64,000 bases of DNA from Paracoccaceae bacterium (GTDB taxonomy: Bacteria > Pseudomonadota > Alphaproteobacteria > Rhodobacterales > Rhodobacteraceae): the NCBI GenBank assembly GCA_009773375.1, contig WRPH01000013.1:62001-126000 (forward strand). The letters are read 5' to 3'. Shown in pieces: positions 46,302 to 48,499 of the stretch; positions within the stretch are counted from its first letter, which is position 1; each line of letters opens with the position of its first letter. The notes beneath the pieces are model-generated. The model searched no databases, was not told the DNA's origin, and saw nothing but the letters and a program-made list of their open reading frames with translations. The translations under genes were made by a program, and so were the position numbers.

Positions 46302-46478
46302 GGTTTTTCCTTTGCCCATGTTTTATTCATATGACCCGCAAAGTTGTGCGGTTTGCGGCAAAGGGCAAGACCTGCTTGACCAAATGCTCAAAAATTCGCC
46401 GAAGCGCCTGTTAATTATAAACTTTTTGTGACCGAAAGCTATGCACGCGCTGCATGGCAGCATTGCCGAGAGGCTCTA

Positions 46479-46508
46479 TTGTGCAGCTGCAGCAATTGGC
46501 CCATGTTA
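46479..46508 (+). promoter_or_regulatory. Possible RpoH-type promoter upstream of the DUF1127 gene
   Basis: TTGTGC (46479-46484), 15 bases, then CCCATGTTA (46500-46508). This resembles the heat-shock sigma factor pattern, with a CCCATnT-like -10 box. In R. sphaeroides the homologous locus is driven by RpoHI/RpoHII under stress. The match is partial and the site is about 75 bases before the start codon. Confidence 0.4.
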
Positions 46509-46584
46509 CCCCTAACAGCGGAACGAAGGTTTTGGCATCCGGTCGGAACCACCCGCTTACAAGACAAAGAATGAGGCTATTATC

Positions 46585-46800
46585 ATGGCATATGTGAATT
46601 CCACCCGCGCAACGCAATCTTCGGTTTCGGACCGGTTCTCGGGCGTTTTCGCCGCGGTTTCGGCAATGATGCAGCGCCGCCGGATCTATGCGCAGACCCT
46701 GCGTGAACTGCGTAGCCTGTCTGATCGCGAACTGACCGATCTGGGCCTGTGCCGCAGCATGATCGTCGAAGTGTCGCGTGAAGCCGCTTACGGCAAGTAA
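46585..46800 (+). CDS. DUF1127 protein, CcaF1-like RNA-binding protein
   Basis: A 71-residue basic protein with the DUF1127 (YjiS) core RRRIYAQTLRELRSLSDRELTDLGLCRSMI near residues 32-60. In R. sphaeroides the homologous gene (RSP_6037, CcaF1) encodes a small RNA-binding protein co-transcribed with the CcsR RNAs and made under oxidative and heat stress. The immediately following array of CCTCCTCCC hairpins makes the same assignment very likely here. A good ribosome site is not obvious before the ATG (GAATGAGGCT..., GAGG at 9-14 bases). Confidence 0.85.
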   Translation: MAYVNSTRATQSSVSDRFSGVFAAVSAMMQRRRIYAQTLRELRSLSDRELTDLGLCRSMIVEVSREAAYGK

Positions 46801-46809
46801 TCCCTGAAC

Positions 46810-46883
46810 GGGCCTCTATCCTCCTCCCGGAGGCTTCGTTTCACGGCGCGGCGGCGCGCTTTCTCCTCCCTTGCGCCGTCGCC
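46810..46883 (+). ncRNA. CcsR-like RNA unit 1 (two hairpins)
   Basis: First hairpin GCCTC/GAGGC with loop motif CCTCCTCCC at 46820-46828; second, a 10-bp GC stem (46848-46857 with 46873-46882) with CTCCTCCC at 46863-46870. Starts 10 bases after the DUF1127 stop. A T run follows (46884-46888). Confidence 0.75.
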
Positions 46884-46898
46884 TTTTTATTCTCTTCG

Positions 46899-46967
46899 AC
46901 GGGCCCCTCCTCCTCCCTGGGCCTCTCGGACCCGCGGCGATCCAGTCCTCCTCCCTTGGATCGTCGC
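46899..46967 (+). ncRNA. CcsR-like RNA unit 2 (two hairpins)
   Basis: First hairpin GGCCC/GGGCC (46902-46906 with 46919-46923), motif CCTCCTCCC at 46909-46917 in the loop; second, an 11-bp stem (46934-46944 with 46957-46967) with CCTCCTCCC at 46947-46955. Confidence 0.8.
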
Positions 46968-46983
46968 ATCTTTTGACTTCGAC

Positions 46984-47049
46984 GGCCCCCTCCTCCTCCC
47001 TGGGGCTTTCGGATCGGCGGCGACTCAACCTCCTCCCTGAGTTGCCGCC
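46984..47049 (+). ncRNA. CcsR-like RNA unit 3 (two hairpins)
   Basis: First hairpin GCCCC/GGGGC (46985-46989 with 47002-47006), motif at 46992-47000; second, a 12-bp stem (47016-47027 with 47038-47049) with CCTCCTCCC at 47029-47037 filling the loop. Confidence 0.8.
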
Positions 47050-47060
47050 TCTTACTCGAA

Positions 47061-47126
47061 CGGCCAACCTCCTCCCTGGCCGGGCGATCAGGCGGTGACC
47101 CTTACCTCCTCCCGAGGGTCACCGCC
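47061..47126 (+). ncRNA. CcsR-like RNA unit 4 (two hairpins)
   Basis: First hairpin CGGCCA/TGGCCG (47061-47066 with 47077-47082), motif at 47068-47076; second, a perfect 12-bp stem (47091-47102 with 47115-47126) with CCTCCTCCC at 47105-47113. Confidence 0.8.
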
Positions 47127-47141
47127 GTTTCTGCTTCGCCT

Positions 47142-47204
47142 GTTCCGCACCTCCCTGCGGCAAAGGCGTCTGGCGGCGATCCTTGCCTCCCATGGATCGC
47201 CGCT
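47142..47204 (+). ncRNA. CcsR-like RNA unit 5, with shortened loop motifs
   Basis: First hairpin CCGCA/TGCGG (47145-47149 with 47156-47160), loop CCTCCC only; second, an 11-bp stem (47172-47182 with 47194-47204), loop also reduced to CCTCCC. The stems are kept while one CCT repeat is lost from both loops. Confidence 0.7.
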
Positions 47205-47215
47205 TTCAGGTTCGA

Positions 47216-47282
47216 TCGGCCCTCCTCCTCCCTGGCCGAGCGATTGGGCGGCACCGCGCTCCTCCTCCCTTGCGGTGCCGCC
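47216..47282 (+). ncRNA. CcsR-like RNA unit 6 (two hairpins)
   Basis: First hairpin TCGGCC/GGCCGA (47216-47221 with 47234-47239), motif at 47224-47232; second, an 11-bp perfect stem (47247-47257 with 47272-47282), motif at 47261-47269. A degenerate CCCTCTCCC follows near 47290 without a clear stem. Confidence 0.8.
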
Positions 47283-47350
47283 ACCCGTCCCTCTCCCTTG
47301 CATCAGCCCACGCCTGCCGCGATAGTCGCGCAAACCAGACGGGCGGCTTG

Positions 47351-48499
47351 ATGCGTATTTCCCTGCTTTCTTCGGCACTTGTTGCCGCATTGGTCGGCTA
47401 CGGCTCCACCATCGCGCTGATCCTGTCTGCGGCTGCGGCGCTGGGGGCCAGCCCGGCACAAACCGCAAGCTGGGTGTTTGCGATCTGCATCGCCAAGGCG
47501 GTCGGCTCGGCCTGGCTGAGTTTTCAAACCCGCGTGCCGGTGGTGCTGGCCTGGTCTACCCCCGGCGCGGCCCTGATCGCCGCCACATCCGGCATCTCGA
47601 TGGCCGAGGCGGTGGGTGCCTTCCTGCTGGCAGGCGGGCTGATTGCGCTGACCGGAGCCTTGCGCCCCTTGGGTCGCGCCGTGGCGCTGATCCCCGACGG
47701 AGTGGCGGCGGCGATGCTGGCCGGGGTGCTGCTGCCGTTCTGCCTGAAAGGCAGCGCCGCCGCACAGGCGCTGCCCGCGCTGGTGCTGCCAATGATTGCG
47801 GTGTTTCTGCTGGTCCGGCTGAAAAACCCGGCGCTGGCGGCGCTTGCCGCCCTAGCCACTGGCCTGATCCTTGCCTTCGCGACGGGTGCCGCCCATCTGC
47901 CCGCGCTTGCGCTGCCAATGCCCACGCTGACCTTCATCGCCCCCAGCTTCCGGCCCGATGTGCTGCTGGGCCTTGGCCTGCCGCTCTATCTGGTGACGAT
48001 GGCGTCGCAGAACCTGCCCGGCTTTGCCACCCTGCGTGCGGCGGGGTTTGAGCCGCCGGTGCGCCCGGCGCTGATCACGACGGGGGGCCTTTCCGCGCTG
48101 GCGGGTCTGTTTGGCGCACATACCATCAGCATGGCGGCGATCACCGCAGCGATCTGTCTGGGCGATGACACCCACCCCGACCGCAGCCAGCGCTGGAAAG
48201 TCGGGCTGGCCTATGCCGGGTTCTGGGCGCTGCTTGGCTTGCTCGGGCCAGTGATTCTGCCGGTTCTGGCAGCGCTGCCGCCCGCGCTGATCACGGCGCT
48301 GGTGGCGCTGGCGCTGCTGTCACCGCTGATGGGGGCGCTGACCGGGGCCTTCGCCGCGCCGCAAACCCGCTTTGCCGCGACGGTGACGCTGGCAGTCACC
48401 GCTTCAGGTGTGGCGGTTTTCGGGATTGGGGCTGCGTTCTGGGGCTTGCTGGCCGGCCTCGCGGTCTACGCGCTGGAGCGTTTGAAGCATCGGTCGTAA
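47351..48499 (+). CDS. Benzoate/H+ symporter, BenE family
   Basis: A 382-residue transporter with about 12 membrane segments. It begins MRISLLSSALVAALVGYGST; conserved BenE parts include WSTPGAALIAATSG, LPLYLVTMASQNLPGFATLR and the FGAHTISMAAITAAICLG block, equivalent to the benzoate site region. True substrate not known, since BenE paralogues occur without benzoate genes. The ATG at 47351 is chosen because upstream sequence belongs to the RNA array. The ribosome site is weak (GGGCGG). It could be read from the stress promoter that makes the array, or from one in 47283-47350. Confidence 0.88.
   Translation: MRISLLSSALVAALVGYGSTIALILSAAAALGASPAQTASWVFAICIAKAVGSAWLSFQTRVPVVLAWSTPGAALIAATSGISMAEAVGAFLLAGGLIALTGALRPLGRAVALIPDGVAAAMLAGVLLPFCLKGSAAAQALPALVLPMIAVFLLVRLKNPALAALAALATGLILAFATGAAHLPALALPMPTLTFIAPSFRPDVLLGLGLPLYLVTMASQNLPGFATLRAAGFEPPVRPALITTGGLSALAGLFGAHTISMAAITAAICLGDDTHPDRSQRWKVGLAYAGFWALLGLLGPVILPVLAALPPALITALVALALLSPLMGALTGAFAAPQTRFAATVTLAVTASGVAVFGIGAAFWGLLAGLAVYALERLKHRS

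Follow-up and report, generated by a model that had tools for sequence, protein, structure and literature searches.

What kind of locus do the hairpins behind a short DUF1127 gene in this Paracoccaceae bacterium form, and how might it be controlled? We analysed a 64,000-nucleotide stretch of contig WRPH01000013.1 (the window), in which an earlier note had recognised a CcaF1-like gene followed by CcsR-like RNAs. In Rhodobacter sphaeroides, ccaF1 (RSP_6037) encodes a 71-aa DUF1127 protein and is followed by two-hairpin CcsR units with CCUCCUCCC loops (PMC10253847). Our results revealed that the locus is a CcsR/cuckoo-type sRNA locus and that it extends the known sRNA family. What appears to be new here is a conserved, putative LysR-type box upstream of the gene.

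The DUF1127 gene and the hairpin array

The gene and the array were laid out in the window as follows:

46585..46800, + strand: DUF1127 gene, ccaF1-like, 71 aa (Pfam PF06568, E 2.8e-13)
46810..46836, + strand: unit 1 hairpin a, CCTCCTCCC at 46820 (Rfam CcsR1 40.7 bits, 46800-46887)
46848..46882, + strand: unit 1 hairpin b, loop CTCCTCCC at 46863, then TTTTT at 46884-46888
46895..46930, + strand: unit 2 hairpin a, CCTCCTCCC at 46909 (Rfam CcsR1 51.9 bits, 46892-46972)
46934..46967, + strand: unit 2 hairpin b, CCTCCTCCC at 46947
46978..47013, + strand: unit 3 hairpin a, CCTCCTCCC at 46992 (Rfam CcsR1 47.2 bits, 46975-47053)
47016..47049, + strand: unit 3 hairpin b, CCTCCTCCC at 47029
47061..47082, + strand: unit 4 hairpin a, CCTCCTCCC at 47068 (Rfam CcsR1 48.8 bits, 47050-47130)
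47091..47126, + strand: unit 4 hairpin b, CCTCCTCCC at 47105
47145..47160, + strand: unit 5 hairpin a, CCTCCC loop at 47150 (Rfam CcsR1 23.3 bits, 47133-47208)
47172..47204, + strand: unit 5 hairpin b, CCTCCC loop at 47186, 11-pair stem intact
47212..47243, + strand: unit 6 hairpin a, CCTCCTCCC at 47224 (Rfam CcsR1 33.7 bits, 47209-47286)
47247..47282, + strand: unit 6 hairpin b, CCTCCTCCC at 47261, last-position stem GGCGGCACC/GGTGCCGCC

Motif search and hairpin folding gave the same count as the earlier note, namely twelve hairpins in six two-hairpin units with nine exact loops, and the gap of 19 bases from the DUF1127 stop to the first loop motif, together with the PF06568 match, confirmed that a CcaF1-like gene stands directly 5' of the array. 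The motif lay in a hairpin loop at all twelve sites, with stems of 5 to 13 pairs: nine loops were CCTCCTCCC, a single one was CTCCTCCC without the leading C, and both loops of unit 5 were shortened to CCTCCC, as the note had said. The stems of unit 5 are intact. From unit to unit the first-motif starts were 89, 83, 76, 82 and 74 bases apart, reproducing the spacing of 74-89 given before. A thirteenth, weaker site (CTCCC at 47293) formed no hairpin, and no further CTCCTCCC was present outside the array on either strand of the window. Furthermore, CCTCCTCCCT occurred 8 times forward and 0 times in reverse in the whole 3.7-Mb assembly, 7 of the 8 being in the array, and its backward-read control gave 0 forward and 1 reverse. 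The ccaF1-like protein shared 68 percent identity with the Cypionkella psychrotolerans copy. A BenE-type benzoate transporter gene (window 47351-48499, same strand) was located about 70 bases 3' of the array, and read-through into it is possible because the array ends without a T run.

Membership in the CcsR/cuckoo family

All six units matched the Rfam CcsR1 model (RF02791) below its gathering score of 65.3 bits, the best with 51.9, and the default Rfam scan at the gathering score gave 0 matches in the window; that score was passed by 7 of 150 family genomes. Together with the adjoining DUF1127 gene, these matches uphold the CcsR-like reading. The ar14 model (RF02344) reached 55.2 bits at 46928-47053, under its gathering score of 58.8. 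The cuckoo RNA family and the CIN1 locus (Reinkensmeier and Giegerich 2015, via PMC10253847 and PMC4504443; founding RNAs in PMC3927594) are described by conserved CCUCCUCCC loops, variable stems and linked short DUF1127 proteins. Here we found adjacent hairpins with CCUCCUCCC loops within the described range of two to four (CTCCTCCC in both loops of five of the six units), variable stems whose pairing was kept in the flank exchange reported below, and a short DUF1127 gene (PF06568) beside the RNAs. However, two to four is the number of hairpins described per cuckoo RNA, whereas the present array joins six two-hairpin units.

The likeness to CcsR1-4 and CcaF1 of R. sphaeroides consists of a 71-aa DUF1127 protein and then two-hairpin CCUCCUCCC units, of which there are four in that species and six here. 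The shortened loops of unit 5 and the scores of all units under the gathering score also set the window apart, and its last unit is without a T run whereas the R. sphaeroides array has a 3'-end terminator (PMC10253847). NfeR1/ar14 of Sinorhizobium meliloti (RF02344) shares the loops and an LsrB box upstream at an equal inferred distance, but it has three hairpins per RNA, unlike the two-hairpin units here. In the rhizobial loci that we fetched, such motifs were placed upstream of the DUF1127 gene and not downstream as in the window. Nine of them (L034, L037, L039, L040, L044-L046, L049 and L050) carried two to six CTCCTCCC motifs ahead of the gene, and in eight of the nine the dyad described below was upstream too.

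Pairing and the RNA strand

Stems that differ between units while loops are kept had been taken in the earlier note as a sign of selection on the loop, and both flank exchange and pair-type counts agreed with selection on loop plus pairing. For 470 distinct CTCCTCCC sites, entered without a hairpin filter (a design preferred over a run on stems preselected for pairing), the mean best stem score was 15.4, against 8.0 with exchanged right flanks (maximum 8.3 in 60 trials), and the hairpin threshold was passed by 97 percent of real and 47 percent of flank-exchanged sites. The window's own 10 CTCCTCCC sites had a mean score of 16.1 against 8.2 when exchanged (maximum 12.4), and none of the 2000 trials equalled the real value. 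We also tallied pair types in 319 hairpins. At each of the eight stem positions nearest the loop, the seven commonest types included four to six of the standard ones, and at four of these positions all six; thus the compensatory stem changes that had been set beforehand as the test are present. In 363 distinct stems picked by a strand-neutral rule, we counted 169 G-T positions, 26 A-C positions and 98 other mismatches, and the excess of G-T over A-C shows the + strand to be the RNA strand of the array. A coding array was considered and rejected: the steps between motifs were 42, 47, 38, 45, 37, 39, 37, 42, 36, 41 and 37 bases, only 5 of 11 being multiples of three, so no single frame keeps the motif.

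Unit number and turnover in relatives

The covariance-model survey of family genomes that the earlier note had proposed as a check gave CcsR1-like matches (E 0.001 or better) in 127 of 150; among 14 control genomes only Thermus composti had a match, below the gathering score. Paired motifs were found in 57 of 101 genomes (own genome and relatives); within the genus, 14 of 15 genomes had them, this one among them. Identical stretches in common with Cypionkella psychrotolerans (L009, the same as L065) and C. aquatica (L010, the same as L085) assign the window to that genus group. We compared 77 loci, with the distant loci L033-L053 except L036, the copies in the own genome and other pattern matches set aside. 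A DUF1127 match was near the array (tblastn) in 68 and lacking in 9, where 25 of the 77 had been found through the DUF1127 protein itself, and removal of five duplicates from the 68 left 63 distinct loci. These held 0 to 16 CTCCTCCC motifs per locus in the 1000 bases downstream of the stop (none in two loci), and ten or more, as in the window, in 25. By this comparison six units is an ordinary number: the note was right that six are present in place of four, but an expansion peculiar to this genome is not what the relatives point to. The array is tied to the DUF1127 gene in many genera, and of the 60 distinct arrays with a called hairpin, 54 had their first motif 17-30 bases past the stop of this gene; hairpin counts stop at gaps of more than 160 bases and undercount some arrays (L009, for example, has 13 motifs and 2 hairpins).

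Across the 14 genus arrays, first units had another genome's first unit as their closest relative in 11 of 14 cases, and last units another genome's last unit in 10 of 13; unit 6 of the window was closest to the last unit of L069. Middle units were nearest to middle units of other genomes in 25 of 38 cases and to their own array in 8, all of these counts being approximate as unpaired motifs were dropped (L086, for example, has 9 motifs and 4 units). At this approximate level, the end units appear to stay the same from one genus member to the next, and it is the middle units that turn over. In the six-unit array of G006 (L069), which has similar spacing, all twelve loops are full, so the shortening in unit 5 looks like a feature of the window's lineage and may reflect either decay or specialisation. 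In three other genus arrays (L063, L071 and L072) the last two hairpins shared the altered loop GTCCTCCCAC, which means that loops can change and persist; their early hairpins carried lengthened motifs such as CTCCTCCCTCCC. L107 had seven units behind its DUF1127 gene, mostly near-exact tandem copies with a period of 113 bases, and a T run followed its last hairpin. In hairpin b of L010, L011 and L084, several right arms contained TGGATCACC or a near form, which we take to equal part of the 16S rRNA 3' end next to the anti-Shine-Dalgarno motif. This likeness is probably a coincidence; a search of this assembly for the 16S tail gave no match.

A conserved box and promoter-like block upstream of the gene

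Two blocks precede the ccaF1-like gene; they first came to light in an alignment of upstream regions from 15 loci:

46441..46455, + strand: ATGC-N7-GCAT dyad ATGCACGCGCTGCAT, a LysR-type T-N11-A box and predicted LsrB-like operator
46479..46507, + strand: promoter-like block TTGTGC-N17-CATGTT (-35/-10)

The dyad was present upstream of the gene in 57 of the 63 distinct loci, none of which had been fetched by means of it, and the rest of these loci held 3 in 224743 bases; the loci being interrelated, these are not 57 independent observations. Two of the six loci without it were also without array motifs and four had them, that is, the dyad was absent in 4 of 61 loci with array motifs. A TTGTGC-N16-18-CATNT block was found in 43 of the 63 loci, and in the 42 loci with both elements its start followed that of the dyad by 38 bases (35 loci) or 37 bases (7 loci). 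If transcription starts about seven bases past CATGTT, the T-N11-A element would lie at about -72 to -60. In S. meliloti, the TGCA-N6-GCAT element of NfeR1 at -72 to -60 was gel-shifted by LsrB, and a point mutation of this box abolished the shift (PMC10746234). The window's ATGCACGCGCTGCAT is likewise a T-N11-A box of the TGCA-N6-GCAT type 5' of the promoter-like block. Where the published VtlR box reads GCAT-N3-TG-N3-T, the window reads GCAT-GGC-AG-CAT-T, one base off in TG; the VtlR form fits in some relatives, e.g. L084.

Among the distant DUF1127 loci (L033-L053; L036 belongs also to the 77-locus set), the dyad was found in 18 of 21, in 23 copies which were all upstream of the DUF1127 match; the single Rhodococcus locus of this set had none. 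The dyad is not exclusive to such genes: L201 (G000:C34:66116 and 70853) has two dyads ahead of unrelated ORFs. By eye these ORFs read as SDR/epimerase-like and aldehyde-dehydrogenase-like, and similar pairs of dyads recur, equally spaced in G003 and on separate contigs in G006. A pattern scan of the window returned one promoter-like site (46556-46583) and one weak terminator-like site scoring under the shuffle mean; the scan was blind to hairpin b of unit 1 because it did not cover loops longer than 8.

An LsrB-like regulator and a SorX/SorY-like sRNA

A longer form of the dyad pattern was found at three places in this genome, and further places include C28:4527 and C39:37896. At one of the three, the dyad stood past the end of a LysR gene (297 aa) and ahead of a SorX/SorY-like sRNA:

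L138:2770-3663 and L130:1346-1440, both - strand: LsrB-like LysR gene and, on the same strand, the dyad, a SorX/SorY-like sRNA and then what we read as purL

The protein matched Pfam HTH_1 and LysR_substrate, and the sRNA scored 49.3 bits with SorX (gathering 46.6) and 56 of 111 with SorY. Among solved LysR structures the closest was 9HH1 (E 6.3e-70, the next being 8.2e-29), which is LsrB of A. tumefaciens (PMC11975290). Of 61 genomes, 39 had the LsrB-like protein with an E value of 1e-80 or better; 12 of the 14 other genus members carry it, at 90-97 percent identity. In 18 of 30 loci a dyad stood in the 500 bases after the LsrB-like gene; in 12, G026 and G016 included, this stretch had none. 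In G007 the dyad was farther from the gene and again before a SorX/SorY-like sRNA; in G004 (L207) this sRNA was present and the long dyad pattern absent. Of the further places of the long pattern in this genome and its relatives, we inspected eight stretches (L200-L207) and ran Rfam on seven of them, L201 excepted: L200 and L205 had it inside a gene, L202-L204 showed no sRNA, and in L206 the dyad stood ahead of a SorX/SorY-like sRNA. Among the family genomes covered by both the CcsR1 and the LsrB-like search, the LsrB-like identity was 54 to 79 percent in the six listed without CcsR1 matches and 75 to 80 percent in the twelve with them, a co-variation that lineage distance explains as well as function does.

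The arrangement resembles the LsrB/VtlR-AbcR locus of Rhizobiales in that a box and an sRNA come after a LysR gene, all on one strand. It differs in that the sRNA here is SorX/SorY-like with the putative purL next to it, and that trxB is elsewhere, with no LysR gene beside it. LsrB has been called unique to Rhizobiales (PMC11975290), while another paper speaks of a regulator that is conserved in Alphaproteobacteria (PMC7486931). Our literature search, with the primary CcsR, CcaF1 and cuckoo papers outside its scope, returned no paper tying CcsR/CcaF1 to LsrB; PMC12501420 names both sides, LsrB, in the passages covered, only in the reference list. An LsrB-type input would be new for this bacterial family, a novelty that the literature search leaves unproven. 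LsrB control of ccaF1-CcsR in Rhodobacteraceae is thus a prediction.

Candidate targets

In this genome, GGGAGGAGG-N3-11-ATG was found at two places and in the control at none, and both places were gene starts when the two strands were read. One gene encodes a LacI-type regulator (Pfam LacI, E 1.1e-17) and the other a branched-chain/urea-type ABC ATPase (Pfam ABC_tran), whose closest NCBIfam models, UrtE and LivF, were both under the cut-off. The shorter pattern GGAGGAGG-N4-10-ATG occurred at nine places, including both GGGAGGAGG places, against one in the control. Recognisable genes stood behind six of the nine. The four besides the GGGAGGAGG pair encode an enzyme of the acetate/propionate-CoA ligase type (truncated at the end of the locus), an ABC substrate-binding protein of the sugar type, an acetoacetyl-CoA reductase (TIGR01829, over the cut-off) and a ParB protein; the three places before ORFs of 65-75 aa are probably noise. 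Judged by complementarity to the loops, these six are candidate targets:

L117:406-1503, - strand; L118:1517-2218, + strand; L119; L120; L123; L126: candidate target genes with GGAGGAGG sites, two of which are GGGAGGAGG

The calculated pairing energy with GGGAGGAGG was -18.1 kcal/mol for the full loop and -11.4 for the six-base loop of unit 5.

Proposed mechanism and alternative explanations

In R. sphaeroides, an RpoHI/RpoHII promoter gives a joint transcript of ccaF1 and CcsR1-4, the transcript is cut by RNase E under the influence of CcaF1, the RNAs are degraded by PNPase and flhR is a target (PMC10253847, PMC8625941, PMC7866481, PMC8307010). In S. meliloti, the NfeR1 loops silence ntrB redundantly at its translation start, and the target candidates are mostly ABC transport systems (PMC10746234). 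We consider it probable that the window holds a CcsR/cuckoo-type operon, in which, by analogy, the ccaF1-like gene and six mostly anti-Shine-Dalgarno units would be co-transcribed and then cut apart to silence mRNAs at purine-rich ribosome sites, with an LsrB-like input predicted. A stress (RpoHI/RpoHII) promoter would drive the operon; the units, likely transcribed together with the ccaF1-like gene, would be released as separate small RNAs by RNase E with CcaF1 and turned over by PNPase; and their loops, mutually redundant as in NfeR1, would block translation at the ribosome-binding sites. The direct targets are likely among the GGAGGAGG genes, for instance ABC transporter parts, the LacI-type regulator and acyl-CoA enzymes. 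The LsrB-like LysR protein is predicted to bind the box at 46441-46455 and to control both the operon and the SorX/SorY-like sRNA.

Could the hairpins mainly serve ccaF1, as the 3' end or stabiliser of its mRNA or as a platform titrating CcaF1, with the trans-acting RNAs as by-products? The short and narrowly kept distance from stop codon to first hairpin favours this, as does the run of 5 or 6 T after hairpin b of unit 1 in 12 of 14 genus arrays. In the 50 arrays with two or more units, T runs of at least 4 followed 15 first units, 6 of 132 middle units and 15 last units, thus being commoner after first than after middle units; in the window the last unit had none, and the run after unit 1 hairpin b at 46884-46888 might act in partial termination or be an RNase E processing site. 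CcaF1 of R. sphaeroides also binds RNA and alters CcsR levels (PMC10253847). However, a terminator or stabiliser needs no identical 9-base loop in up to 16 hairpins, rhizobia have the same loops ahead of their DUF1127 genes, and S. meliloti NfeR1 works in trans via these loops (PMC10746234), so that this explanation seems unlikely to us. That the array is a neutral tandem repeat whose copies duplicate and decay without function is very improbable: middle units do come and go, and some arrays consist of near-exact tandem copies, but stems vary with pairing kept and loops constant in many genera, and the arrays share the gene ahead of them, with a promoter block and a box conserved upstream. We give even less credence to an active minus strand with GGGAGGAGG hairpin loops, acting as a CsrB-type sponge for CsrA/RsmA. 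The reverse complement of every motif contains GGGAG, and nearly all contain GGGAGG, as such a sponge would have; nevertheless, the G-U bias of the stems (169 to 26) fits the + strand only, and a search that was positive in 3 of 14 control genomes detected no CsrA here, in a genome that is 93 percent complete; on these grounds we rejected the sponge.

The dyad might be the site of another LysR-type protein, or of some other regulator, rather than of an LsrB-like protein; we lean against this but take it as a real possibility, for T-N11-A is generic for LysR proteins, the VtlR box matches only partly, and 12 of 30 LsrB-like loci lack a dyad in the 500 bases downstream. On the other hand, LsrB binds the TGCA-N6-GCAT element of NfeR1, which is of the same kind and at the same inferred distance (PMC10746234), and the own LsrB-like gene itself precedes a dyad and an sRNA. 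A wider proposal, for which we see an even chance, would place the ccaF1-CcsR operon, with its changeable copy number, in an LsrB regulon together with the SorX/SorY-like sRNA; in that case, a single stress circuit of Alphaproteobacteria, ancient and predating the Rhizobiales, would comprise LsrB, DUF1127 proteins and anti-Shine-Dalgarno RNAs.

The array shows that unit number and the sequence of middle units are free to vary while end units, loop and pairing are kept. A shared LysR-type regulator could explain why DUF1127 proteins and CCUCCUCCC RNAs travel together, and, if this is true, the findings on redox-sensitive LsrB in rhizobia would apply to photosynthetic Rhodobacteraceae.
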